Source: Streptomyces sp. Ncost-T10-10d (lineage in GTDB: Bacteria > Actinomycetota > Actinomycetes > Streptomycetales > Streptomycetaceae). Taken from it: 64,000 nucleotides of DNA. The stretch is taken from positions 1 to 64,000 of the forward strand of contig NZ_FMDF01000070.1 of assembly GCF_900091955.1 (NCBI RefSeq). The letters run 5' to 3'. The notes under the pieces are model-generated. The model worked only from the letters and a program-made list of their open reading frames with translations, was not told where the DNA came from and ran no database searches. Positions 22-52,592 of the stretch are shown one piece after another (the first letter of the stretch is position 1; every line of letters begins with the position of its first letter). Made by a program: the position numbers and the translations under genes.

Positions 22-63
22 ACATTATGGCACTCAGTACCCTCTGTAAAGGAACTTGGTGCC
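22..63 (-). promoter_or_regulatory. Leftward promoter with paired TetR-type operators
   Basis: Read on the minus strand: operator GGCACCAAGTTCC (63-51), -35 TTTACA (50-45), 3 nt, operator GGTACTGAGTGCC (41-29), 1 nt, -10 TAATGT (27-22). The -35 to -10 spacer is 17 nt. The two 13-bp near-palindromes lie 22 bp apart, on one face of the helix. The promoter points off the left edge of the window, so it serves an unseen gene divergent from the TetR gene at 95. The same architecture occurs at 824-866 and 48513-48554. Seen in sequence; repression by a TetR protein is inferred. Confidence 0.6.
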
Positions 64-94
64 AGAAAGGGTCTTCCGGTGCTACGTTCCCCGC

Positions 95-802
95 ATGACT
101 GACGCACACAGGCCAGGGAAGAAGCCCCCCATGCGGGAGGTGCTCGCCGAGGCGGCCTTCCAGCTCTTCCTGGAGCGGGGCTTCGAGCGGACCACGGTGG
201 ACGACATCGTGGCGCGGGCCGGGGTCGGGCGCCGGTCGTTCTTCCGGTACTTCCCCTCCAAGGAGGACGCGGTCTTCCCGGATCACGAGCGCTGCCTCGC
301 CGACATGACGGCGTTTCTTGCGGCGGCCGGTGACACGGAGCCGGTCGACGCGGTGTGCGACGCGGCCCGGCTCGTGCTGCGCATGTACTCCGCAAACCCG
401 GAATTCTCCGTCCAGCGCTACCGGCTCACCCGGGAGGTGCCCGGGCTGCGTACCTACGAACTGTCCGTGGTGCGCCGTTACGAGCAGACGTTGGCCGGTC
501 ATCTCCGTGACCGGTACGGCGAGTCGGGGGACGGGGCGCTGCGGGCCGAGGTGATCGCCGCATCCGTGGTGGCCGCGCACAACAACGGGCTGCGGAGCTG
601 GCTGCGTTCGGGCGGTGAGGGGGACCCGGAGGCCGCGGTGGATCACGCACTCGGGCTGGTGCGCCAGGTGTGGGGGAGTGCGCCGGCCGGGGGCGCGCCC
701 CCGGCCGCCACCGACGGTGACGTGGTGGTCATGGTTGCCGCCAAAGGGGCCCCGATGTGGCGCGTCGTGCAGCAGATCGAGTCGGTCATCGGCCAGGGCT
801 GA
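95..802 (+). CDS. TetR-family transcriptional regulator
   Basis: A 235-residue DNA-binding repressor. The N-terminal helix-turn-helix lies at about residues 18-60; its recognition segment contains GVGRRSFFRYF followed by the family-typical PSKEDAVFPDH. An all-helical ligand-binding domain fills the rest. The ATG at 95 is preferred over a GTG at 56 because the extra residues lie inside the operator region. It is clearly paralogous to the TetR at 49564-50379: both share FPDH, RYxLTREVP, a SGGEGD-like stretch and near-identical recognition helices. It is flanked by paired GGCACTnnGTGCC-type operators upstream (29-63) and downstream (824-859), so autoregulation and control of the DUF35 gene are likely. 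The ligand is unknown; an acyl-CoA is a reasonable guess because the paralogue sits next to ccr. Confidence 0.9.
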   Translation: MTDAHRPGKKPPMREVLAEAAFQLFLERGFERTTVDDIVARAGVGRRSFFRYFPSKEDAVFPDHERCLADMTAFLAAAGDTEPVDAVCDAARLVLRMYSANPEFSVQRYRLTREVPGLRTYELSVVRRYEQTLAGHLRDRYGESGDGALRAEVIAASVVAAHNNGLRSWLRSGGEGDPEAAVDHALGLVRQVWGSAPAGGAPPAATDGDVVVMVAAKGAPMWRVVQQIESVIGQG

Positions 803-823: not shown

Positions 824-866
824 GGTACTGAGTGCCTTTACGTTTCGACACTCAGTGCCCTATGGT
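824..866 (+). promoter_or_regulatory. Promoter with paired TetR-type operators upstream of DUF35 gene
   Basis: Operator GGTACTGAGTGCC (824-836), then -35-like TTTACG (837-842), 4 nt, operator GACACTCAGTGCC (847-859), 1 nt, and -10-like TATGGT (861-866). The spacer is 18 nt. The start would fall near 873, about 50 nt before the GTG at 924. The proximal operator fills the spacer, so a bound repressor would exclude RNA polymerase. The layout matches the ccr promoter almost exactly. Confidence 0.6.
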
Positions 867-923: not shown

Positions 924-1307
924 GTGTCCCAGTCATCAAGTGGCACCGTGCAGACGGTGCATGAGGAAGCCGGCCTGTACTACCAGCGGTGCCGCTGGTG
1001 CGGCACGGCCTCCTTCCGGAGGCTGCTGTGTCCGGTGTGCGCATCGAGTGATCTGATGCCCGAGCGCAGCGCCGGTCTGGGTGTTGTGGTGAGGTCCGGC
1101 GTCGTCCATCGCTACACGGACGCGGCGCGCAACGAGTCCCTGGTCCGGCTCCCCGAGGGCTTTGTGTTCCGTTGCCGTGTCGTGGGCGCCGCGCCGCACG
1201 AGGTGTCGGTCGGCGCGCGGGTGCGCCCGATTGCCGGCGGTGATCGGGACACGGGCGAGGTGGTCTTCGAACTCTGCGATCCGCCCAGGCGCGACGACTG
1301 GTTCTGA
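924..1307 (+). CDS. Zn-ribbon/OB-fold (DUF35-type) acyl-CoA-associated protein
   Basis: A 127-residue protein of the DUF35 class: an N-terminal rubredoxin-like zinc ribbon (CRWCGTASFRRLLCPVC, about residues 21-37) followed by an OB fold. In characterised relatives the OB fold binds acyl-CoA and the protein partners thiolases or other acyl-CoA enzymes. GTG 924 is chosen because AGGGGG lies about 8 nt upstream and the product begins just before the ribbon; the longer open frame runs back into the TetR gene. No thiolase lies beside it. The paired operators just upstream are shared with the ccr operon, which suggests a role in short-chain acyl-CoA metabolism. Family assignment is good; specific function is unknown. 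Confidence 0.8.
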   Translation: MSQSSSGTVQTVHEEAGLYYQRCRWCGTASFRRLLCPVCASSDLMPERSAGLGVVVRSGVVHRYTDAARNESLVRLPEGFVFRCRVVGAAPHEVSVGARVRPIAGGDRDTGEVVFELCDPPRRDDWF

Positions 1308-40501: not shown

Positions 40502-41359
40502 CTATGGCAGCTGTGTCGCCCGTGCCTCACGCCGGTTGTCGCGGAAGGTGTTCACCCGCCGCGCCGTCGCGAAGAGCGGGATGACCGCTCCCAGGACCAC
40601 CTGCAGCGCACAGCCGGTCTGGAGAAGCAGCTGACCGCCGGGGGCGTCGAACGCCCACGCGGCGAGGAGCCCCATCGCGGCCACGATCCAGCTGAGCATC
40701 GCCACCGCGAGGACACCCCGCGGCTTCGGGTACTCGACCCGGCTGACCATCAGCCACGCCACTCCGACGATCGCGAGCAGCGTCGGTACGAAGGGCAGCT
40801 CCAGGAGCACGATCGAGACGACCGTGAGCGCTCCGAAGGGGCTCGGCATGCCCTGGAACATGCCGTCCTTCATGGTCACACAGGAGAATCTGGCAAGTCT
40901 GAGCACCACAGCCAGCAGCACCACGATCGCCGCCAGCGCCGAAACCCGTTGGTGTGCGTCGTCCGCGACCATGCCGTACACGAGGACGAAGTACGCCGGG
41001 GCGAGGCCGAAGCTGATGAGGTCCGAGAGGTTGTCCAGCTCGGCACCCATCGGCGAGGAGCGCAGCTTGCGTGCCACGAGCCCGTCGAAGAGGTCGAACA
41101 CCGCGGCCATGAGCATGAGGATCACGGCGGTGGCCGCGGAGTGCCGGGCCATGCCGCTCTCGTCGCTGCCCGTGAGGTGCGGGATGAGGATTCCGGTGGT
41201 GGTGAAGTACACCGCCATGAAACCGCATGTCGCGTTGCCGAGAGTGAGGGTGTCCGCTATCGACAGCCGCAGAGAGAGCGGCATGTCCTCGCCGGCGTCC
41301 TCCTCGGACTCCGCCTCCGGCACCCAGCCCGCCTGCGTGTCAGGATCAATCACGGTCAA
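40502..41359 (-). CDS. pssA: CDP-diacylglycerol--serine O-phosphatidyltransferase
   Basis: A 285-residue integral membrane enzyme that makes phosphatidylserine from CDP-diacylglycerol and serine. The CDP-alcohol phosphotransferase motif is visible around residues 88-111: DLFDGLVARKLRS then GAELDNLSDLISFG. About eight membrane segments follow. The start overlaps the psd 3' end: TTG at 41359 or GTG at 41353, so translation is coupled to psd. Together the two genes supply phosphatidylethanolamine. Confidence 0.92.
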   Translation of the reverse strand: MTVIDPDTQAGWVPEAESEEDAGEDMPLSLRLSIADTLTLGNATCGFMAVYFTTTGILIPHLTGSDESGMARHSAATAVILMLMAAVFDLFDGLVARKLRSSPMGAELDNLSDLISFGLAPAYFVLVYGMVADDAHQRVSALAAIVVLLAVVLRLARFSCVTMKDGMFQGMPSPFGALTVVSIVLLELPFVPTLLAIVGVAWLMVSRVEYPKPRGVLAVAMLSWIVAAMGLLAAWAFDAPGGQLLLQTGCALQVVLGAVIPLFATARRVNTFRDNRREARATQLP

Positions 41360-41993
41360 TTCGAGTCACCCCCGCGGTGGTGGCCTGGCCGACCTCGACC
41401 GCGACATCGATACCTTCCGGAAGGTAGATGTCGACCCGGGAGCCGAAACGGATCAGGCCGATGCGCTCGCCCTGCTCCACCTTCGTGCCCTGCGGGATAT
41501 ACGGGACGATGCGACGGGCGACCGCACCCGCGATCTGCACCATCTCGATGTCACCGAGCTCGGTGTCGAAGTGCCAGACAACGCGCTCGTTGTTCTCGCT
41601 CTCCTTGTTGAACGCCGGAACGAACCCACCGGGGATGTGCTCGACCGAGGTCACCGTGCCGGCCAGGGGCGCACGGTTGACATGGACATTCAGCGGGCTC
41701 ATGAAGATCGCGACGCGGGTGCGCCCGTCCTTCCACGGCATGATGCTCTGCACCACGCCGTCGGCCGGCGAAATGACCCGGCCCTGGGTGATCTCACGCT
41801 CGGGGTCGCGGAAGAACCACAGCATGCCCGCCGCGAGCGCAGTCGTGGGCACGGCCACCGCGGCCCAGCGTCCGGACTTGCGGGCCCGGGTGAGGCTGAG
41901 TGCCGCGGTGGCGACGGTCGGGAGGAGCCACGGCGAAGCTCCGCGCGCAAGGCGGACTCCGCCGCGTGGTGCAGAGGTTTGGCTGTCGGGCAT
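41346..41993 (-). CDS. psd: Phosphatidylserine decarboxylase proenzyme
   Basis: A 215-residue short-form (archaeal/actinobacterial type) decarboxylase. Self-cleavage occurs at Gly184-Ser185 in RFGSRVD, leaving the pyruvoyl cofactor on the alpha chain. The catalytic Asp78 (SPADG) and His104 (NVHVNR) are in place. Two hydrophobic segments lie in the first 60 residues. ATG 41993 gives the family N-terminus. It decarboxylates the PssA product to phosphatidylethanolamine and its 3' end overlaps pssA. Confidence 0.94.
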   Translation of the reverse strand: MPDSQTSAPRGGVRLARGASPWLLPTVATAALSLTRARKSGRWAAVAVPTTALAAGMLWFFRDPEREITQGRVISPADGVVQSIMPWKDGRTRVAIFMSPLNVHVNRAPLAGTVTSVEHIPGGFVPAFNKESENNERVVWHFDTELGDIEMVQIAGAVARRIVPYIPQGTKVEQGERIGLIRFGSRVDIYLPEGIDVAVEVGQATTAGVTRIDRD

Positions 41994-42055
41994 GGATGAC
42001 CTTCGTAGCGGATGATGCCGCGCTGGCAACGGGGGACGGCGGCTTTTCCGGCGAT

Positions 42056-42174: not shown

Positions 42175-43380
42175 TCACCCCTGGAACCGGTACTCCTCGA
42201 GGAGTCGGCGCCCAATGATCATTTTCTGGATCTCGGCGGTACCCTCACCGATCAGCAGCATCGGGGCCTCCCGGTAGAGGCGCTCGATCTCGTACTCCTT
42301 GGAGAAGCCGTAACCGCCGTGGATCCGGAAGGCGTCCTCGACGACTTCCTTGCAATACTCGGAGGCGAGGTACTTCGCCATCCCTGCCTCCAGGTCGTTT
42401 CGTTCCCCGGAGTCCTTTTTGCGCGCTGCGTTTACCATCATCGCATGGGCGGCCTCGACCTTGGTGGCCATTTCGGCCAGCTTGAACTGGATCGCCTGGT
42501 GCTGAGCGATCGGCTTTCCGAAGGTGTGGCGCTGTTGGGCATAAGCAACACCCAGCTCGAATGCACGCTGTGCGACGCCGCAGCCACGTGCAGCCACATT
42601 CACCCGGCCGACCTCTACGCCGTCCATCATTTGGTAAAACCCCCGGCCGGTGGTGCCGCCCAGGACTCGATTGGCCGGAATGCGTAGCCCGTCCATGATG
42701 AGTTCGGTCGTGTCGACGCCCTTGTAGCCCATTTTGTCGATTTTGCCGGGGATGGTGAGACCGGGCCGCACCTCGCCGAAACCGGGCTCCTTCTCCACCA
42801 GGAACGTCGTCATCGACTTGTGCGGGGCGGTCCCCTCGGGGTGGCCTTCGTCACTCCGGCACAGCACGGCGACGAGCGAGGACGTGCCGCCGTTCGTCAG
42901 CCACATCTTCTGGCCGTTCAGGACGTACTCATCGCCGTCCTTGACGCCCTTGGAGGTGATCGCCGCGACATCGGAGCCCAGTGCCGGCTCGGACATCGAG
43001 AAGGCGCCGCGGACCTCGCCCAGCGCCATCCGCGGCAGGAACGTGTCCTTCTGCTCCTGCGTGCCGTGCTGCTTGAGCATGTACGCCACGATGAAGTGCG
43101 TGTTGATGATTCCCGACACGCTCATCCAGCCGCGGGCAATTTCCTCCACGCACAGCGCGTATGTGAGAAGCGACTCACCCAGGCCCCCGTACTCCTCGGG
43201 AATCATCAGCCCGAACAGGCCGAGCTCCTTGAGCCCCTCGACGATCTCGGTCGGGTACTCGTCACGGTGCTCCAGCCGGGTCGCGACCGGAATGATCTCC
43301 TTGTCGACGAAGTCCCGGACCGTGGAGAGAATTTCCTGCTGGACATCGTTGAGACCGGCAGTCTGGGCAAGTCGCGTCAT
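42175..43380 (-). CDS. mcd: Acyl-CoA dehydrogenase, probably methylsuccinyl-CoA dehydrogenase
   Basis: A 401-residue FAD enzyme with the standard fold: FAMSEPALGSD-like segment (GAFSMSEPALGSDVAA near residue 130), the WLTNGGTSSLVAV FAD-binding segment, and a C-terminal IHGGYGFSKEYEIERLYREA. It is last in the ethylmalonyl-CoA operon, starting 2 bp after the mesaconyl-CoA hydratase gene. Position and order match Streptomyces loci where this enzyme oxidises (2S)-methylsuccinyl-CoA to mesaconyl-CoA. It lacks the long N-terminal extension of the proteobacterial enzyme. General acyl-CoA dehydrogenase assignment is certain; substrate is by context. Confidence 0.88.
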   Translation of the reverse strand: MTRLAQTAGLNDVQQEILSTVRDFVDKEIIPVATRLEHRDEYPTEIVEGLKELGLFGLMIPEEYGGLGESLLTYALCVEEIARGWMSVSGIINTHFIVAYMLKQHGTQEQKDTFLPRMALGEVRGAFSMSEPALGSDVAAITSKGVKDGDEYVLNGQKMWLTNGGTSSLVAVLCRSDEGHPEGTAPHKSMTTFLVEKEPGFGEVRPGLTIPGKIDKMGYKGVDTTELIMDGLRIPANRVLGGTTGRGFYQMMDGVEVGRVNVAARGCGVAQRAFELGVAYAQQRHTFGKPIAQHQAIQFKLAEMATKVEAAHAMMVNAARKKDSGERNDLEAGMAKYLASEYCKEVVEDAFRIHGGYGFSKEYEIERLYREAPMLLIGEGTAEIQKMIIGRRLLEEYRFQG

Positions 43381-43382
43381 GG

Positions 43383-43910
43383 CTACTTCTCCACGTTCTT
43401 CTGCGAAGGCTGGTTCAGCTCGGGGCGGCCGGGCTGCTCCCCGCCGCGCTCCTTGATGTACGTCTCGGTGGGGACCATCACCTTGCGACGGAACACGCAG
43501 ACCAGCGTGCCGTCCTGCTTGTACCCCCTGGTCTCCACATAAACGATTCCACGGTCGTTCCTGGACTTTGACGGGGTCTTGTCCAGAACGGTCGTCTCGC
43601 CGTAGATCGTGTCGCCGTGGAAGGTCGGCGCGACATGCTTCAGCGACTCGACCTCGAGGTTGGCGATCGCCTTTCCGGAGACATCCGGAACGGACATTCC
43701 GAGCAGCAGCGAGTAAATGTAGTTGCCGACGACAACGTTCTTCCCGAAGTCGGTCGTCCTCTCCGCGTAGTTGCTGTCCATGTGGAGCGGATGATGATTC
43801 ATGGTCAGCAGGCAGAAAAGGTGGTCGTCGTACTCGGTGACCGTCTTTCCGGGCCAGTGCTTGTAGATCGCACCGACTTCGAACTCCTCAAATGTGCGTC
43901 CGAACTGCAT
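43383..43910 (-). CDS. mch: MaoC-family hydratase, probable mesaconyl-CoA hydratase
   Basis: A 175-residue hot-dog-fold dehydratase: GRTFEEFEVGAIYKHWPGKT at the start, the active-site-like DDHLFCLLTMNHHPLHMD and GKNVVVGNYIYSLLLGM segments following. It should hydrate mesaconyl-C1-CoA to beta-methylmalyl-CoA. It is about half the length of two-domain proteobacterial Mch, as in other actinobacteria. ATG 43910 lies 2 bp after the upstream lyase stop, and the stop lies 2 bp before the dehydrogenase start. Confidence 0.88.
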   Translation of the reverse strand: MQFGRTFEEFEVGAIYKHWPGKTVTEYDDHLFCLLTMNHHPLHMDSNYAERTTDFGKNVVVGNYIYSLLLGMSVPDVSGKAIANLEVESLKHVAPTFHGDTIYGETTVLDKTPSKSRNDRGIVYVETRGYKQDGTLVCVFRRKVMVPTETYIKERGGEQPGRPELNQPSQKNVEK

Positions 43911-43912
43911 GC

Positions 43913-44932
43913 TCAGGCCTCCGGTGCTTCGAACTTGGAGGTGCGCTGCATTCCGGCCGCGCGGCCCTTGCCCGCGACGACGAGCGCCATCTTGCGGCTC
44001 GCCTCGTCGATCATCTCGTCGCCGAGCATCGCCGAGCCCTTCTTGCCGCCCTCCTCGGAGGTGCACCACTCGTACGCGTCGAGGATCAGCTCGGCGTGGT
44101 CGTAGTCCTCCTGCGACGGCGAGAACACCTCGTTGGCCGCGTCGACCTGACCGGGGTGCAGCACCCACTTGCCGTCGAAGCCCAGCGCCGCCGCACGGCC
44201 TGCGACCTCGCGGTACGCGTCCACGTCGCGGATCTGCAGGAAAGGACCGTCGATCGCCTGGAGGTCGTGTGTACGGGCCGCCATCAGAATGCGCATCAGG
44301 ATGTAGTGGTAGGCGTCCGCGCCGTATCCGGGCGGCTGCTGACCGACGACCAGGGTCTTCATGTTGATCGACGCCATGAAGTCTGCCGGGCCGAAGATCA
44401 GCGTCTCCAGGCGGGGAGACGCGGCGGCGATGTCGTCGATGTTCACCAGGCCCTTGGCGTTCTCGATCTGTGCCTCGATGCCGATCCTCCCGACCTCGAA
44501 GCCCATCGTCTTCTCGATCTGGGTCAGCAGCAGATCGAGGGCGACGACCTGCTGGGCGTCCTGGACCTTCGGCAGCATGATGCAGTCGAGGTTCTGGCCG
44601 GCGCCCTCGACCACCGTGATCACATCGCGGTACGTCCAGTGCGTCGTCCAGTCGTTGACGCGTACGACCCGGGTCTTGCCCGTCCAGTCGCCGTTGTTCA
44701 GCGCGTCGACGATGTGGTGCCGGGCGCCCTCCTTGGCGAGCGGTGCGCAGGCGTCCTCCAGATCGAGGAAGACCTGGTCGGCCGGGAGACCCTGGGCCTT
44801 CTCCAGGAACCGCGGGTTCGAGCCGGGCACTGCCAGACACGAGCGGCGTGGACGCAGACGGTTCGGGACGTGTGCGGCGGAGCCGCTCCCCGGAAGGGTG
44901 GTCGCGGGAGACGGGGGGGCGGGCTGGGTCAT
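43913..44932 (-). CDS. mcl: HpcH/HpaI (CitE-like) lyase, probable beta-methylmalyl-CoA/malyl-CoA lyase
   Basis: A 339-residue TIM-barrel lyase. Family motifs: SCLAVPGSNPRFLEKA near residue 31, FLDLEDACAP with metal-binding acidic residues near 55, and IEAQIENAKGLVNIDDIAAA near 150, then FGPADFMAS. It cleaves beta-methylmalyl-CoA to glyoxylate and propionyl-CoA, the final step of the ethylmalonyl-CoA cycle. Its ATG overlaps the meaA stop by 4 bp. Minor alternative: citryl-CoA lyase-like activity, unlikely given the operon. Confidence 0.9.
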   Translation of the reverse strand: MTQPAPPSPATTLPGSGSAAHVPNRLRPRRSCLAVPGSNPRFLEKAQGLPADQVFLDLEDACAPLAKEGARHHIVDALNNGDWTGKTRVVRVNDWTTHWTYRDVITVVEGAGQNLDCIMLPKVQDAQQVVALDLLLTQIEKTMGFEVGRIGIEAQIENAKGLVNIDDIAAASPRLETLIFGPADFMASINMKTLVVGQQPPGYGADAYHYILMRILMAARTHDLQAIDGPFLQIRDVDAYREVAGRAAALGFDGKWVLHPGQVDAANEVFSPSQEDYDHAELILDAYEWCTSEEGGKKGSAMLGDEMIDEASRKMALVVAGKGRAAGMQRTSKFEAPEA

Positions 44933-46941
44933 GCGGGGACCTCCAGAGGGTCGAGCTTGTTCGCTTTCCGGATCTCGTCGACGATACGGCCGATGATCTC
45001 CGTGATACCGAAATCCTTCGGGGTGAACACGGCGGCGACGCCCGCCTCGATCAGCGCGGTGGCGTCGGCGGGCGGGATGATCCCGCCCGCGATCACCGGG
45101 ATGTCGGCGGCGCCCGCCTCGCGCAGCCGGGTGAGTACGTCCGGTACGAGTTCGGCGTGCGAACCCGACAGGATCGACAGACCGACGCAGTGCACGTCCT
45201 CGGCGAGGGCGGCCGAGACGATCTGCTCGGGGGTCAGCCTGATCCCCTGGTAGACGACCTCGAAACCGGCGTCACGGGCCCGTACGGCAATCTGCTCGGC
45301 GCCGTTGGAGTGCCCGTCCAGCCCCGGCTTGCCGACCAGCAGCCGCAGCCGCCCGGCGCCCAGGTCGGTCGCGGTGCGCGCGACCTTCTCGCGGACCAGG
45401 GCGAGCGGTGTGCCGGCCTCCGCGGTGACCGCGACCGGAGCGGACGAGACGCCCGTCGGAGCCCGGAACTCGCCGAAGACATCGCGCAGCGCCCAGGACC
45501 ACTCGCCGGTGGTGACACCCGCGCGGGCACACTCCACGGTCGCTTCCATCATGTTCTCGGTGCCCGCGGCGGCCTTCTTCAGCGCGGCCAGCGCGTCGGT
45601 GGCACGGGCCTCGTCGCGGTTGTCGCGCCACTCGTGGAGGGCTGCGGTGACCCTGGCCTCGTTGGCGGGGTCGATCGTCATGATCGCCCCGTCGAGGTCC
45701 GTGGTGAGCGGGTTCGGTTCGGTCGTCTCGTAGATGTTGACGCCGACGATCTTCTCCTCGCCGCCCTCGATCCGGGCCCGGCGGGCGGCGTGCGAGGAGA
45801 CCAGCTCGGATTTCAGATAGCCGGACTCGACGGCCGCCATGGCGCCGCCCATCTGCTGGATCCGGTCGATCTCGGCGAGCGACTCGGTCACCAGCTCGTC
45901 CACCTTGGCCTCGATGACATGCGATCCGGCGAAGATGTCCTCGTACTCCAGCAGATCGCTCTCGTGCGCGAGCACCTGCTGGATACGGAGCGACCACTGC
46001 TGGTCCCAGGGCCGCGGGAGCCCCAGTGCCTCGTTCCAGGCCGGCAGCTGGACGGCCCGGGCGCGGGCGTCCTTGGAGAGGGTGACGGCCAGCATCTCCA
46101 GGACGATGCGCTGGACGTTGTTCTCCGGCTGTGCCTCGGTCAGGCCGAGCGAGTTGACCTGGACGCCGTAGCGGAAGCGGCGCTGCTTGGCGTCGGTGAT
46201 GCCGTACCGCTCGCGGGTGACCCGGTCCCAGATGCGGCCGAAGGCGCGCATCTTGCACATCTCCTCGATGAAGCGGACGCCCGCGTTCACGAAGAAGGAG
46301 ATCCGCGCGACCACATCGCCGAACTTCTCCTCGGGCACCTGACCGGAATCGCGTACGGCGTCCAGGACCGCGATGGCCGTCGACATGGCGTACGCGATCT
46401 CCTGGACCGGAGTGGCTCCCGCCTCCTGCAGGTGATAGCTGCAGATGTTGATCGGGTTCCACTTCGGGATGTGGTTGACCGTGTACGTGATCATGTCGGT
46501 GGTCAGCCGCAGCGAAGGACCGGGCGGGAAGACATGCGTCCCGCGCGAGAGGTACTCCTTGACGATGTCGTTCTGCGTGGTGCCCTGGAGCCTGGTGGCG
46601 TCGGCGCCCTGTTCCTCCGCGACCACCTGGTAGAGCGCCAGCAGCCACATCGCGGTGGCGTTGATCGTCATCGAGGTGTTCATCTGCTCCAGGGGGATGT
46701 CCTGGAACAGCCGGCGCATGTCACCCAGGTGCGACACGGGCACGCCGACCCGGCCGACCTCGCCGCGGGCGAGGATGTGGTCGGGGTCGTACCCGGTCTG
46801 CGTCGGCAGGTCGAAGGCGACCGACAGGCCCGTCTGGCCCTTGGCGAGGTTGCGCCGGTAGAGCTCGTTGGACGCCTCGGCGGTCGAGTGACCGGCGTAC
46901 GTCCGCATGAGCCACGGGCGGTCCTTCCGGCGGCCCGTCAT
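44929..46941 (-). CDS. meaA: Ethylmalonyl-CoA mutase (MeaA)
   Basis: A 670-residue adenosylcobalamin mutase converting ethylmalonyl-CoA to methylsuccinyl-CoA. The N-terminal barrel contains [15 protein letters not shown], the C-terminal B12 domain has [11 protein letters not shown] (DxHxxG), then LSILSGSH and VIAGG. ATG 46941 is preferred over 46950: AGGA lies 9 nt upstream of 46941 but only 1 nt from 46950, and the product then starts like known MeaA proteins. The start is 1 nt from the ccr stop; the stop overlaps the lyase start by 4 bp. Confidence 0.95.
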
Positions 46942-46942
46942 G

Positions 46943-48280
46943 TCAGACATTCCTGAAGCGGTTGATGGCGTCGATGTGCTTCTCGCGCAGTTCCTCGTCG
47001 CGTACACCCAGACCCTCGCGGGGGGCCAGTGCGAGCACGCCGACCTTGCCCTGGTGGAGGTTGCGGTGGACGTCGTACGCGGCCTGGCCGGTCTCCTCCA
47101 GCGAGTAGACCTTCGAGAGCGTCGGGTGGATCCTGCCCTTGGCCACCAGCCGGTTGGCCTCCCATGCCTCGCGGTAGTTGGCGAAGTGCGAGCCCACGAT
47201 CTTCTTCAGCGACATCCACAGGTAGCGGTTGTCGTACTCGTGGTTGTAGCCGGACGTGGACGCGCAGGTGACGATCGTGCCGCCCTTGCGGGTCACGTAC
47301 ACCGAGGCACCGAACGTCTCGCGGCCCGGGTGCTCGAAGACGATGTCCACGTCCTCGCCGCCGGTCAGCTCACGGATGCGCTTGCCGAACCGCTTCCACT
47401 CGCGCGGATCCTGGTTGTGCTCGTCCTTCCAGAACTTGTAGCCCTCGGCGTTGCGGTCGATGATCGCCTCGGCGCCCATCTTCCGGCAGATGTCCGCCTT
47501 CTGGTCGCTGGAGACGACACAGATCGGGTTGGCGCCACCGGCCAGCGCGAACTGAGTGGCATATGAACCGAGTCCGCCGCTGGCGCCCCAGATCAGCACG
47601 TTGTCGCCCTGCTTCATGCCTGCGCCGTTGCGCGAGACGAGCTGACGGTACGCGGTGGAGTTGACCAGGCCCGGAGCTGCGGCCTCCTCCCAGCTGAGGT
47701 GCTGCGGCTTCGGCATCAGCTGGTTGGACTTGACGAGCGCGATCTCGGCGAGGCCGCCGAAGTTGGTCTCGAAGCCCCAGATCCGCTGCTCGGGGTCGAG
47801 CATCGTGTCGTTGTGGCCGTCGGAGGACTCCAGTTCGACCGAGAGGCAGTGCGCGACGACCTCGTCGCCGGGGTGCCAGGCGTTGACGCCGGGGCCGGTG
47901 CGCAGGACGACGCCCGCCAGGTCGGAGCCGATGACGTGGTACGGCAGGTCGTGGCGCTTGGTGAGCTCGCTGAGCTTCCCGTAGCGCTCCAGGAAGCCGA
48001 AGGTGGACATCGGCTCGAAGATCGAGGTCCAGACCGAGTTGTAATTCACCGAGCTGGCCATGACGGCGACCAGTGCCTCACCGGGCCCGAGCTCGGGCAC
48101 CGGAACCTCGTCGAGATGCAGTGACTTGCGGGGGTCCTTGTCACGGGTGGTGAGACCGGCGAACATCTCCGTCTCGTCCTTGTGCACGGTCACCGCGCGG
48201 TACGACTCAGGGATGGACAGGGCCGCGAAGTCTGCGGCGGTGCTGTCCTGCGATTGGATCGCGTCCAGGATTTCCTTCAC
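46943..48280 (-). CDS. ccr: Crotonyl-CoA carboxylase/reductase
   Basis: A 445-residue MDR-family enzyme that uses NADPH and CO2 to turn crotonyl-CoA into ethylmalonyl-CoA. All four CO2-binding residues known from characterised Streptomycetaceae enzymes are present at the same numbers: Asn81, Phe170, Glu171 and His365. The NADPH site is WGASGGLGSYATQFA near 231. GTG 48280 has GGAGG at 7 nt. It heads the operon ccr-meaA-mcl-mch-mcd, and supplies both acetate assimilation and ethylmalonyl-CoA extender units for polyketides. Its promoter carries paired TetR-type operators. Confidence 0.97.
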   Translation of the reverse strand: MKEILDAIQSQDSTAADFAALSIPESYRAVTVHKDETEMFAGLTTRDKDPRKSLHLDEVPVPELGPGEALVAVMASSVNYNSVWTSIFEPMSTFGFLERYGKLSELTKRHDLPYHVIGSDLAGVVLRTGPGVNAWHPGDEVVAHCLSVELESSDGHNDTMLDPEQRIWGFETNFGGLAEIALVKSNQLMPKPQHLSWEEAAAPGLVNSTAYRQLVSRNGAGMKQGDNVLIWGASGGLGSYATQFALAGGANPICVVSSDQKADICRKMGAEAIIDRNAEGYKFWKDEHNQDPREWKRFGKRIRELTGGEDVDIVFEHPGRETFGASVYVTRKGGTIVTCASTSGYNHEYDNRYLWMSLKKIVGSHFANYREAWEANRLVAKGRIHPTLSKVYSLEETGQAAYDVHRNLHQGKVGVLALAPREGLGVRDEELREKHIDAINRFRNV

Positions 48281-48512: not shown

Positions 48513-48554
48513 AACGTATGGCACTCCGTGACACCTGGCAAGGCACTCGGTGCC
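48513..48554 (-). promoter_or_regulatory. ccr operon promoter with paired TetR-type operators
   Basis: Minus strand: operator GGCACCGAGTGCC (48554-48542), -35 TTGCCA (48541-48536), 3 nt, operator GTCACGGAGTGCC (48532-48520), 1 nt, -10 TACGTT (48518-48513). Spacer 17 nt, operators 22 bp apart. A start near 48506 leaves a leader of about 225 nt before ccr. No gene or riboswitch was recognised in the leader (48281-48512). The layout is the same as at 22-63 and 824-866. Confidence 0.75.
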
Positions 48555-49563: not shown

Positions 49564-50379
49564 TCAGCGGCTCTTGAGCGCCTGCTGGATCGTGCGCATC
49601 ACTTCTTCGAGGGGTGCGTCCGTCCGCGCCACCGTGACGAGTACCTCGCCCTGGGACGTCACCGAAGCGGCAGGCTGCTTCGCCGGTTCGGTGCCGGCGA
49701 TCCGGCCCGCGCCGATGCCGGTCCCGAACGTGTCGCGGACGATCGAGAAGGCGTGGTCGAGCTGGGCCTCCACATCGCCTTCGCCGCCCGCCCGCAGCCA
49801 GCGGCGCAGCACATGGTTGTGCGCGGTGACGACGGCGGATGCGGCGACCTCCGCGAGCAGCGGGTCGTCATTGCCGACATGGTGGTCGCGCTCGTCGAAG
49901 TGGCCCAGCAGATAGCGCGTGAACAGCCGCTCGTAGCGGGCCACCGAGGCGATCTCGGCCTCACGCAGCGTGGGGACCTCACGGGTCAGCTTGTAGCGGG
50001 CCACGGAGACCGCGGGCTTTGCCGCGTACATCTTCATGACTTCCTTGATGCCGCGGCAGACGGTGTCGAGCGGGTGCTCGTGCGCGGGGGCGGCATTGAG
50101 GACGGCCTCGGCCCTGACGAGGGTGTCGTCGTGGTCCGGGAAGATCGCCTCTTCCTTGGAGCGGAAGTGCCGGAAGAAGGTCCGCCGGGCGACTCCCGCG
50201 GCGCCCGCGATCTCGTCGACCGTCGTCGCCTCGTACCCCTTCGAGGCGAAGAGTTCCATTGCCGCGGCGGCCAATTCGCGACGCATTTTGAGCCGTTGGG
50301 TGGCGGCGCGGGTGCCTGCGGCACTCTCCTGGGCATCGGGCGCGGCGGAGACACGGGGGGACCTGGCGGGCTGGGACAT
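49564..50379 (-). CDS. TetR-family regulator of the ccr region
   Basis: A 271-residue TetR protein. Helix-turn-helix at about residues 33-80 with recognition segment GVARRTFFRHF and the following RSKEEAIFPDH. It is a paralogue of the TetR at 95-802, with shared MYxAxPxxSVxRYxLTREVP and RAGGEGD. ATG 50379 is used; an ATG six codons upstream is possible. It lies upstream of ccr in the same direction with a GNAT remnant between, and upstream of it is a 3-hydroxyacyl-CoA dehydrogenase. No GGCACT-type operator was seen at its own promoter. It is the natural candidate to bind the operators at 48520-48554, probably sensing an acyl-CoA. Confidence 0.9.
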   Translation of the reverse strand: MSQPARSPRVSAAPDAQESAAGTRAATQRLKMRRELAAAAMELFASKGYEATTVDEIAGAAGVARRTFFRHFRSKEEAIFPDHDDTLVRAEAVLNAAPAHEHPLDTVCRGIKEVMKMYAAKPAVSVARYKLTREVPTLREAEIASVARYERLFTRYLLGHFDERDHHVGNDDPLLAEVAASAVVTAHNHVLRRWLRAGGEGDVEAQLDHAFSIVRDTFGTGIGAGRIAGTEPAKQPAASVTSQGEVLVTVARTDAPLEEVMRTIQQALKSR

Positions 50380-50470: not shown

Positions 50471-52252
50471 TCAGCGCCGGGCATATTCGCGGAAGCCGCG
50501 CCCCGTCTTGCGACCGAGGCAGCCGGCGGCCACCAGATGCTCCAGCAGTGGAGCCGGGGCCAGGCCCGGGTCGCGGAACTCGCTGTGCAGCACCTTCTCG
50601 ATGGCGAGCGAGACATCGAGTCCGACGACGTCGAGGAGCTCGAACGGGCCCATCGGGTAGCCGCCGCCCAGCTTCATCGCGGCGTCGATGTCGTCGAGGC
50701 TCGCGTAGTGCTCCTCGACCATCTTGATCGCGTTGTTGAGGTACGGGAACAGCAGCGCGTTCACGATGAAGCCGGCCCGGTCCCCGCAGTCCACCGGGTG
50801 CTTGCGGACCTTGACGCACACCTCGCGGACGGTGGCGTGGACATCATCGGCGGTGAGCACCGTACGGACGACCTCGACCAGCTTCATCGCGGGCGCCGGG
50901 TTGAAGAAGTGCATCCCGATGACGTCCTGCGGGCGCGAGGTGGCCCGTGCGATCGCCACGACCGGCAGTGACGAGGTGGTGGTGGCGAGCACCGCACCCG
51001 GCTTGCACACCTTGTCGATCGTCCCGAACAACTGCTGCTTGACCGACAGGTCCTCGGCGACCGCCTCGACCGCGAGATCGACATCGGCGAAGGCGTCCAG
51101 CGAACCGGATGCGGTGATCCGGGCCAGGGTCTCGTCCCGCGCCTCGGCGGTCAGCCGCCCCTTGGTGACGGATCGCTCCAGGGACTTGGCGATCCGGCCC
51201 TTCGCCGTGTCCGCCTTCTCCTGGCTGCGGGCGGCGAGCACCACGTCGTAGCCGGCCTTCGCGAAGACCTCGGCGATCCCCGAGGCCATCGTCCCGGAGC
51301 CCGCGACGCCCACCGAGCGCACCGTGCGCCCGCCGGCCCCGGACACGCTCTCCCGCGGGGTCAGCGAGTCCGGCACCACGGTCCGGCTGCCGGATTCCGT
51401 GTACGTGTAGAAGCCGCGGCCCGACTTGCGACCGGTCAGCCCCGCCTCGCTGAGCTGCCTGAGGACGGGGGCCGGGGCGTGCAGCCGGTCGTGCGACGCG
51501 GAGTACATCGCCTCCAGGACGGTACGGGCGGTGTCGATCCCGATCAGGTCGAGGAGGGCGAGCGGGCCCATCGGCAGGCCGCAGCCCAGCTTCATCGCCG
51601 CGTCGATGTCCTCACGGGAGGCGTAGTTCGCCTCGTACATCGCGGCGGCCTGGTTGAGGTACCCGAACAGCAGCCCGTCGGCGACGAAACCCGGCCGGTC
51701 GCCGACCGCGACCGGCTCCTTGCCCAGGCTGCGGGCGAGCGCGGTGACCGCCTCGACGGCCGGCGGCGCGGTCAGCACCGAGGAGACCACCTCGACCAGC
51801 TTCATCGCGGGCGCCGGGTTGAAGAAGTGCAGACCGAGCACGCGCTCGGGGTGCAGCGATTCGGCGGCGAGCCGGGTGACCGACAGGGCATTGGTGCCGG
51901 TCGCCAGGATCGCGGTGGGGGAGACGATCGCGTCGAGCTCCCGGAAGAGCTGCTGCTTGATCTCGTACGACTCGGGCACGACCTCGATGACCAGCTCCGC
52001 CTCCGCGGCGGCCTGGAGGTCACCGAAAGTACGGAACCGGGCGAGGACGTCGCCGCGCTCCTCCTCCGTGATCCGCTCGCGCCGCACGGCGCGGGCGGTT
52101 GCGGCTTCCAGGGCCGCGACGGCCTGACGGGCGGCCGCGTCGCTGATGTCGATACCGATGACCTCGTGGCCGGCGCGGGCCAGGACTTCGGCAATGCCGG
52201 TGCCCATGGTGCCGAGACCGACGACGGCAATGGTGCTGAGCGGGGTGTCCAT
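50471..52252 (-). CDS. Tandem-duplicated 3-hydroxyacyl-CoA dehydrogenase
   Basis: A 593-residue protein containing two complete 3-hydroxybutyryl-CoA dehydrogenases in a row. Each has a Rossmann motif (VVGLGTMGTGIAEVLARAG at residue 8; VAGSGTMASGIAEVFAKAG near 318), HFFNPAPAMKLVEVV and a C-terminal GxPMGPxxLLDxxG block. Single-copy relatives are about 285 residues. It interconverts 3-hydroxyacyl- and 3-oxoacyl-CoA with NAD(P), here probably feeding crotonyl-CoA formation for Ccr. ATG 52252 has TGGAG at 8 nt. Same strand as the TetR and ccr genes. Confidence 0.93.
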   Translation of the reverse strand: MDTPLSTIAVVGLGTMGTGIAEVLARAGHEVIGIDISDAAARQAVAALEAATARAVRRERITEEERGDVLARFRTFGDLQAAAEAELVIEVVPESYEIKQQLFRELDAIVSPTAILATGTNALSVTRLAAESLHPERVLGLHFFNPAPAMKLVEVVSSVLTAPPAVEAVTALARSLGKEPVAVGDRPGFVADGLLFGYLNQAAAMYEANYASREDIDAAMKLGCGLPMGPLALLDLIGIDTARTVLEAMYSASHDRLHAPAPVLRQLSEAGLTGRKSGRGFYTYTESGSRTVVPDSLTPRESVSGAGGRTVRSVGVAGSGTMASGIAEVFAKAGYDVVLAARSQEKADTAKGRIAKSLERSVTKGRLTAEARDETLARITASGSLDAFADVDLAVEAVAEDLSVKQQLFGTIDKVCKPGAVLATTTSSLPVVAIARATSRPQDVIGMHFFNPAPAMKLVEVVRTVLTADDVHATVREVCVKVRKHPVDCGDRAGFIVNALLFPYLNNAIKMVEEHYASLDDIDAAMKLGGGYPMGPFELLDVVGLDVSLAIEKVLHSEFRDPGLAPAPLLEHLVAAGCLGRKTGRGFREYARR

Positions 52253-52592
52253 CACGGGACTCCAGACAATGAGTGACGACTGTGAGGAGCACGGCGCGCG
52301 CACAAGAGGCGAACTGGCGCAGGGCGTGCGGGATTTGCGTGTCGTGGTGCTCAGGGCCTGGGCGCGACGGGCACGCCCGGACCGGGAAGGGGTGACGGAC
52401 TCTGTCCCGGAGTCACGTCTCGCAAAGCTGCCGAACCGACAAGCACTCCGGGTGGCTGCGTCACCAGGCCACCGGAGCCGGCGGGGAGTGTGTCCCGCTC
52501 ACATGAGCTTAACCGGCGAGTAACGAGCGCGCCAGCCCCGAGTTGCTGTGGTCCGCCTCACACTCACCGTCATCGTCGATACGCTGAGGGTC
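52253..52592. other. Divergent intergenic region
   Basis: 340 bases between the dehydrogenase (minus) and the HEAT-repeat gene (plus). No gene is supported. No GGCACTnnGTGCC operator is present. A weak 5-bp inverted pair (GACTC / GAGTC) sits near 52400-52420. Promoters for both genes must lie here. Confidence 0.5.

Follow-up and report, generated by a model that had tools for sequence, protein, structure and literature searches.

EMC-pathway genes and an ETF electron carrier of Streptomyces share a twin-operator promoter design, most likely read by two sister TetR-family regulators

The ethylmalonyl-CoA (EMC) pathway is a central route of acetate assimilation, and Streptomyces draws from it ethylmalonyl-CoA and related units for its polyketide antibiotics. 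For Methylobacterium extorquens, Hu and Lidstrom are said to have reported in 2012 that CcrR activates a gene of this pathway. CcrR resembles the two proteins described here, TetR-1 and TetR-2, in being a TetR-family regulator of an EMC-pathway gene; it differs from them in being described, as far as the accessible accounts go, as an activator and in belonging to another phylum, and the comparison is one of description. Another point of comparison is MftR of Mycobacterium smegmatis with its mycofactocin operator. According to the accessible part of PMC8728441, it protects 27 bp containing GGCACTCGATGCC followed by ATATAT, it binds long-chain acyl-CoA, and its residues R29, D38 and R48 are needed for DNA and H68 for oleoyl-CoA. 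SCO3201 of S. coelicolor is a TetR-family regulator with lipid-related targets and the published site TGGCAGATTCTGCCA (PMC7324645, accessible part).

We analysed a stretch of 64,000 nucleotides (the window), which forms the first 64 kb of a 102.6-kb contig (C95) in a Streptomyces assembly of 9,359,216 bases (9.36 Mb) and 243 contigs. Three promoters in the window follow the same plan, in which a 13-bp palindrome resembling GGCACTnAGTGCC (O1) abuts the -35 element and a second palindrome (O2) lies in the spacer. The leftward promoter, on the minus strand, is composed of O1 GGCACCAAGTTCC (51..63), the -35 TTTACA (45..50), O2 GGTACTGAGTGCC (29..41) and the -10 TAATGT (22..27). On the plus strand, the middle promoter, that of a DUF35 gene, has O1 GGTACTGAGTGCC (824..836), the -35 TTTACG (837..842), O2 GACACTCAGTGCC (847..859) and the -10 TATGGT (861..866). 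The third promoter, that of the ccr gene, is again on the minus strand and consists of O1 GGCACCGAGTGCC (48542..48554), the -35 TTGCCA (48536..48541), O2 GTCACGGAGTGCC (48520..48532) and the -10 TACGTT (48513..48518). The sites were read from the sequence and compared across relatives, those of ccr across ccr loci. The distance from O1 to O2 is 22 bp at the left, 23 bp at the middle and 22 bp at the ccr promoter; in the same order, the -35/-10 spacers measure 17, 18 and 17 bp and the gaps between the -35 and O2 are 3, 4 and 3 nt, while the gap between O2 and the -10 is exactly 1 nt at all three. Both promoter elements recur among the related pairs: TT of the -35 and TAnnnT of the -10 were found in 67/68 and 68/68 pairs on the leftward side, in 62/66 and 64/66 on the DUF35 side and in 90/90 and 89/90 at ccr. 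The original prediction had placed a shared O1/-35/O2/1 nt/-10 architecture, with sites 22–23 bp apart, at 22–63 (minus), 824–866 (plus) and 48513–48554 (minus); on direct reading the architecture is present at all three promoters and these coordinates are exact to the base.

The MftR operator, as given in the accessible part of PMC8728441, looks similar: a 13-bp GGCA-N5-TGCC frame is followed by one base (A) and then by a -10-like TATAT run, although a single footprint is reported there, whereas two sites 22–23 bp apart are predicted here. The GGCA-N5-TGCC frame is kept in the operators of the present system with class-specific changes, for example T or A at positions 2–3.

Between the leftward and the DUF35 promoters lies the gene of TetR-1 (95..802, plus strand), which profile searches identified as an MftR-like TetR-family regulator (TetR_N and TetR_C_14). 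It has an extended -10, TGnTACGTT, at 80..88 on the plus strand, 6 nt before the ATG; the element is conserved across 66 loci, where it stands 6–7 nt before the start codon. The expected -35 position of this promoter falls on O1 of the left pair, so TetR-1 itself may come under the control of that pair too. The DUF35 gene on the other side (924..1307, plus strand) encodes a ChsH2-like protein with a zinc ribbon and an OB fold (zf-ChsH2, 31.5 bits with a cut-off of 23.2; OB_ChsH2_C, 23.2 bits, under its cut-off of 27.1). To score the flanks of TetR-1 we used 69 Streptomyces loci (L003–L071) of 77 relatives; the remaining eight were a fragment and seven loci from other genera. A pair at 22 bp was present in the left flank in 67/69 loci, and the right flank carried a pair in 65/69, which was spaced at 23 bp in 60 loci and at 22 bp in five.

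The original prediction had also assigned the left promoter to an unseen leftward gene. In related genomes this gene is etfB, encoding electron-transfer flavoprotein beta (full-length loci such as L009, L015, L037, L042, L066 and L070, with the ETF domain confirmed in L009, L015 and L070), and loci of other lineages have an acyl-CoA dehydrogenase gene in its place. By comparison with L009, the GTG of etfB would begin about 16 nt to the left of window base 1, past the contig edge that coincides with the left edge of the window; 41 of the 69 TetR-1 loci likewise end less than 400 bp upstream of TetR-1. In three genomes assembled into 2–3 contigs, a block of etfB and etfA of 1.82–1.86 kb is duplicated, and the identity between the copies is 97.4% (L340/L336), 100% (L337/L341) and 98.5% (L339/L338), which suggests recent duplication or gene conversion. 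One copy carries the operator pair, and the second, without the pair, stands under another promoter. It is probably because of this near-identical duplicate that contigs break to the left of TetR-1; an rRNA operon, also considered as the cause, gave no Rfam match in four loci. EtfB was not found with either of two queries in the window's own assembly (called 99.99% complete). It was matched in 58 of 61 genomes, so a gap in the assembly is a likelier explanation than true absence of the gene, which was probably lost at a collapsed repeat to the left of window base 1.

The third promoter precedes a minus-strand operon of EMC genes. Its first gene is ccr (46943..48280), for crotonyl-CoA carboxylase/reductase (TIGR01751, 634.9 bits with a cut-off of 378.55). 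This is followed by a gene with the limits of an open reading frame at 44929..47007, for a mutase of the methylmalonyl-CoA mutase family, from its position presumably ethylmalonyl-CoA mutase, by a CitE/HpcH-type lyase gene found in profile searches (43913..44932; presumably beta-methylmalyl-CoA lyase), by a MaoC-type mesaconyl-CoA hydratase gene (43383..43913) and by an acyl-CoA dehydrogenase gene (42175..43380), whose product is a candidate methylsuccinyl-CoA dehydrogenase, this substrate being presumed. Enzymes of this kind pass their electrons to ETF. In the accessible part of PMC13118837, synteny of ccrA/ecm with an acyl-CoA dehydrogenase and a MaoC protein is described, and overexpression of meaA1 and citE2 in a pteF mutant is described in that of PMC9394381. 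After the EMC genes, at 40502–42029 of the window (minus strand), genes for phosphatidylserine decarboxylase and synthase were seen.

Upstream of ccr, at 49564..50379 on the minus strand (start codon approximate), lies the gene of TetR-2, a paralogue that is 46% identical to TetR-1. Directly upstream of it, one open reading frame (50471–52303, minus strand) holds two tandem 3-hydroxybutyryl-CoA dehydrogenase units. Among the matches listed, which leave six of the 98 ccr genomes outside, all 89 genomes with both genes on one contig have TetR-2 on the strand of ccr and upstream of it; the distance is below 12 kb in 88 of the 89 (383–7,913 bp) and 17,619 bp in the remaining one. Two genomes (G010 and G037) gave a TetR-2-like match with no ccr ortholog found, and two ccr genomes (G050 and G073) gave no TetR match at E ≤ 1e-30. 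The upstream region of TetR-2 itself has no recognisable operator, the lowest count being 4 mismatches. In S. coelicolor, SCO6473 is presumably ccr, and the probable counterpart of TetR-2 is sco6474, a TetR gene next to the FadB-like sco6475. The accessible part of PMC7324645 mentions sco6474 as a TetR gene near sco6475 and gives it no function.

Of 98 parsed Streptomyces genomes with ccr, 90 entered the promoter test at this gene. The pair was present in 90/90, the best pair being always spaced at 22 bp (at locus L236 the reported pair is a false one whose score equals that of the true site), with 3 mismatches in 17, 4 in 63 and 5 in 10 of the pairs. After shuffling of the ccr upstream regions, only one of 1,800 reached 5 mismatches or fewer, with one pair at 5. 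Ten further Streptomyces ccr loci all showed the pair at 22 bp with 3–5 mismatches. The composite motif is thus enriched at orthologous promoters, as the original prediction implied, both at ccr and, in the counts given above, on the two flanks of TetR-1. Outside Streptomyces but within the class (the best 14 of 69 genomes with a match), the pair was absent from 14/14 ccr loci, the lowest counts being 7–10 mismatches over all spacings of 14–33, and no relative of TetR-1 or TetR-2 was present in their 1.5-kb flanks.

Both TetR proteins score above the cut-off of 24 for TetR_N (PF00440; TetR-1 58.9 bits, TetR-2 60.5 bits). The C-terminal domain TetR_C_14 of MftR (PF17754) was found in TetR-1 (37 bits, cut-off 22.7) and was not reported in TetR-2 at E ≤ 0.001. 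With 96.9 and 93.4 bits, the two did not reach the cut-off of 224.9 of the MftR equivalog TIGR03968 (NCBIfam), and no MftC (TIGR03962) was detected above cut-off in the window's own genome or in any of 14 control genomes. Residues were matched to MftR by the spacing between the published positions and by phmmer alignments. MftR R29, D38, R47 and R48 correspond to R28, D37, R46 and R47 of TetR-1, conserved in 68, 68, 69 and 69 of 69 sequences, and to K, E, R and R in TetR-2; E also occupies the D38-equivalent position in the MftR chain of R. jostii. The ligand residue His68 is replaced by Cys in 69/69 TetR-1 sequences and by Thr in 11 of 16 TetR-2 rows, the other five rows being unreadable, so the MftR ligand is not simply transferable. 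When TetR-1 was modelled with AlphaFold2 (mean pLDDT 86.8), the closest folds included two MftR structures, 2rae at rank 1 and 8x0a at rank 6. A conserved C-terminal extension was seen at about residues 205–233 of TetR-1, with V210, V212 and P220 in at least 90% of 38 rows that include TetR-2; this extension, which is modelled with low confidence, could contact a neighbouring dimer. MftR is like TetR-1 and TetR-2 in its TetR fold, its conserved DNA-contact residues and its link to acyl-CoA (PMC8728441, accessible part), and the present system is unlike it in having EMC and ETF genes as predicted targets and in the replacement of His68.

We then come to the question of which protein reads which promoter. 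The two were told apart by identity and place (TetR-1, at least 57% identity), and TetR-1 was present in 58/101 genomes among the matches listed. Among the 90 ccr pairs tested, 34 sit in genomes in which TetR-1 was not detected, and for this reason ccr is the probable target of TetR-2 and etfB/DUF35 that of TetR-1. Most likely, judging from sequence, TetR-1 controls etfBA in the leftward direction, itself and the DUF35 gene, and TetR-2 controls the ccr operon of the EMC pathway. The assumption that one regulator type governs all three promoters thus holds at the level of one TetR subfamily; within it, two paralogues are probably at work, in view of these 34 pairs and of a difference at position 6 of O2. 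This position is G in 86/90 ccr promoters and T in 129/134 pairs flanking TetR-1 (67/68 on the etfB side, 62/66 on the DUF35 side).

It is unlikely, in our opinion, that a single regulator, either TetR-1 or TetR-2, serves all three promoters and that its paralogue has another role. The operators are indeed alike, and two genomes (G027 and G043) have kept the DUF35 pair (1 and 3 mismatches; loci L329 4606 and L330 7815) with only TetR-2 found, so TetR-2 could read both kinds of operator. The class-specific base at position 6 of O2 speaks against a single reader, and the ccr pairs of genomes without detected TetR-1 speak against TetR-1 as the sole one. The two genomes make some cross-reading of operators likely, and the division of labour between the sister proteins would be blurred to that extent.

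We consider it probable that the three promoters, with their tandem operators, belong to a small regulon under two paralogous MftR-like TetR repressors. One repressor dimer would bind O1 next to the -35, and another would bind O2 inside the -35/-10 spacer. O1 and O2 are about two helical turns apart and would therefore be on the same DNA face; two 27-bp footprints at a distance of 22 bp would touch, which fits adjacent dimers on one face. Together, the dimers would cover the core promoter and shut out RNA polymerase. An acyl-CoA-type ligand (a CoA thioester) would free the repressors when CoA-ester flux is high, and on their release the enzymes of the EMC pathway would rise together with the ETF that takes electrons from acyl-CoA dehydrogenases. 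Since the spacers of 17–18 bp are at the sigma70 optimum, a twist of the MerR type would not be needed. Rather tentatively, a more detailed version can be proposed, in which the two sister repressors have partly separate codes (TetR-1 reading T at position 6, TetR-2 reading G at that position of O2), bind cooperatively on one face, possibly through the C-terminal extension, and each sense their own CoA thioester from the EMC pathway or from acyl-CoA oxidation, thereby switching the pathway together with a duplicated, dedicated copy of ETF.

That the TetR proteins activate these promoters instead of repressing them, as CcrR reportedly does in Methylobacterium extorquens, seems to us very unlikely. 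There is a precedent in another phylum, where an EMC gene has an activator from the TetR family whose mutant had half the Ccr activity (PMC4207312, accessible part). However, with O2 in the -35/-10 spacer and O1 at the -35, bound proteins would block the polymerase in an ordinary promoter, and the spacers already have the optimal length. The name CcrR also occurs in a Streptomyces paper (PMC5627430, accessible part), where it denotes a primer and not a regulator.

A still smaller probability is given to a different reader of GGCA-N5-TGCC, for example a TetR protein of the SCO3201 type. According to the accessible part of PMC7324645, SCO3201 is like TetR-1 and TetR-2 in its family, in the outer GGCA...TGCC half-sites and in its lipid-related targets, and SCO3201 structures are among the closest folds to the TetR-1 model. 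It is unlike them in being a different gene and in having another palindrome core, and no tandem geometry is mentioned in that part of the paper. Its inner core, GATTC, matches neither CTnAG nor the core of the ccr sites, and the pairs follow the distribution of TetR-1 and TetR-2.

If TetR-1 and TetR-2 are repressors as we propose, their removal would be an obvious way to raise precursor supply. With predicted operators that are precise to the base and two candidate repressors, control of the ccr operon becomes directly testable, and the shared rigid promoter design provides a specific starting point for understanding how Streptomyces controls its supply of building blocks for antibiotics. In the literature searched, of which little came from subscription journals and most papers were unopened, no regulator was assigned to the Streptomyces ccr operon; within the same scope neither the operator pair nor either TetR protein as a ccr regulator appeared, which is weak evidence of novelty. 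A search of the literature by the operator letters gave nothing relevant among the matches listed.

The probability that the pairs are chance or a common promoter consensus and not operators is negligible, for although single palindromes are scarcely commoner than in the reversed control (26 places in the genome against 18, at no more than 1 mismatch), three pairs were found in the window (at most 5 mismatches, spacing 22 or 23) and none in 200 dinucleotide shuffles of it, and the single spacing at 90/90 ccr promoters goes together with absence from 14/14 ccr loci of other genera. In all three window pairs, the -35 and the -10 are placed in one direction. When single sites were matched to a looser pattern, 33 matches were counted in the window, where shuffles averaged 19.7 and 2 of 100 reached 33. 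At 11 of the 22 single-palindrome places outside the window, those examined, the partner site was absent in every case, and the single-site scan was dropped as a route to more targets. The signal resides in the pair, not in single palindromes.

With up to 3 mismatches allowed, the whole 9.36-Mb genome gave two pairs at 22 bp and one at 23 bp, every one inside the window and no further one outside it, and the reversed-pattern control gave none. In a scan of 61 genomes, the 22-bp pattern was found in 34 genomes and the 23-bp pattern in 23, with one each for the reversed controls. All 28 places of the 23-bp pattern were at TetR-1 clusters; the 22-bp pattern matched at 45 places, 38 of them at TetR-1 or ccr; 5 of the 73 places sit elsewhere, without explanation. 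All 34 TetR-1 genomes among the 61 had a flanking pair, which was at 3 mismatches or fewer in 32 of them and at 4–6 in the other two (G003 and G045). Four genomes had an additional pair within 15 kb of TetR-1, and the two of these clusters that were read contain an acyl-CoA dehydrogenase gene with etfB and etfA behind it. In L252 (9053) and L253 (4560), a cluster of an acyl-CoA dehydrogenase gene followed by etfB and etfA was seen near TetR-1 with a 23-bp pair of its own, and in L253 a short-chain dehydrogenase gene also adjoins TetR-1.
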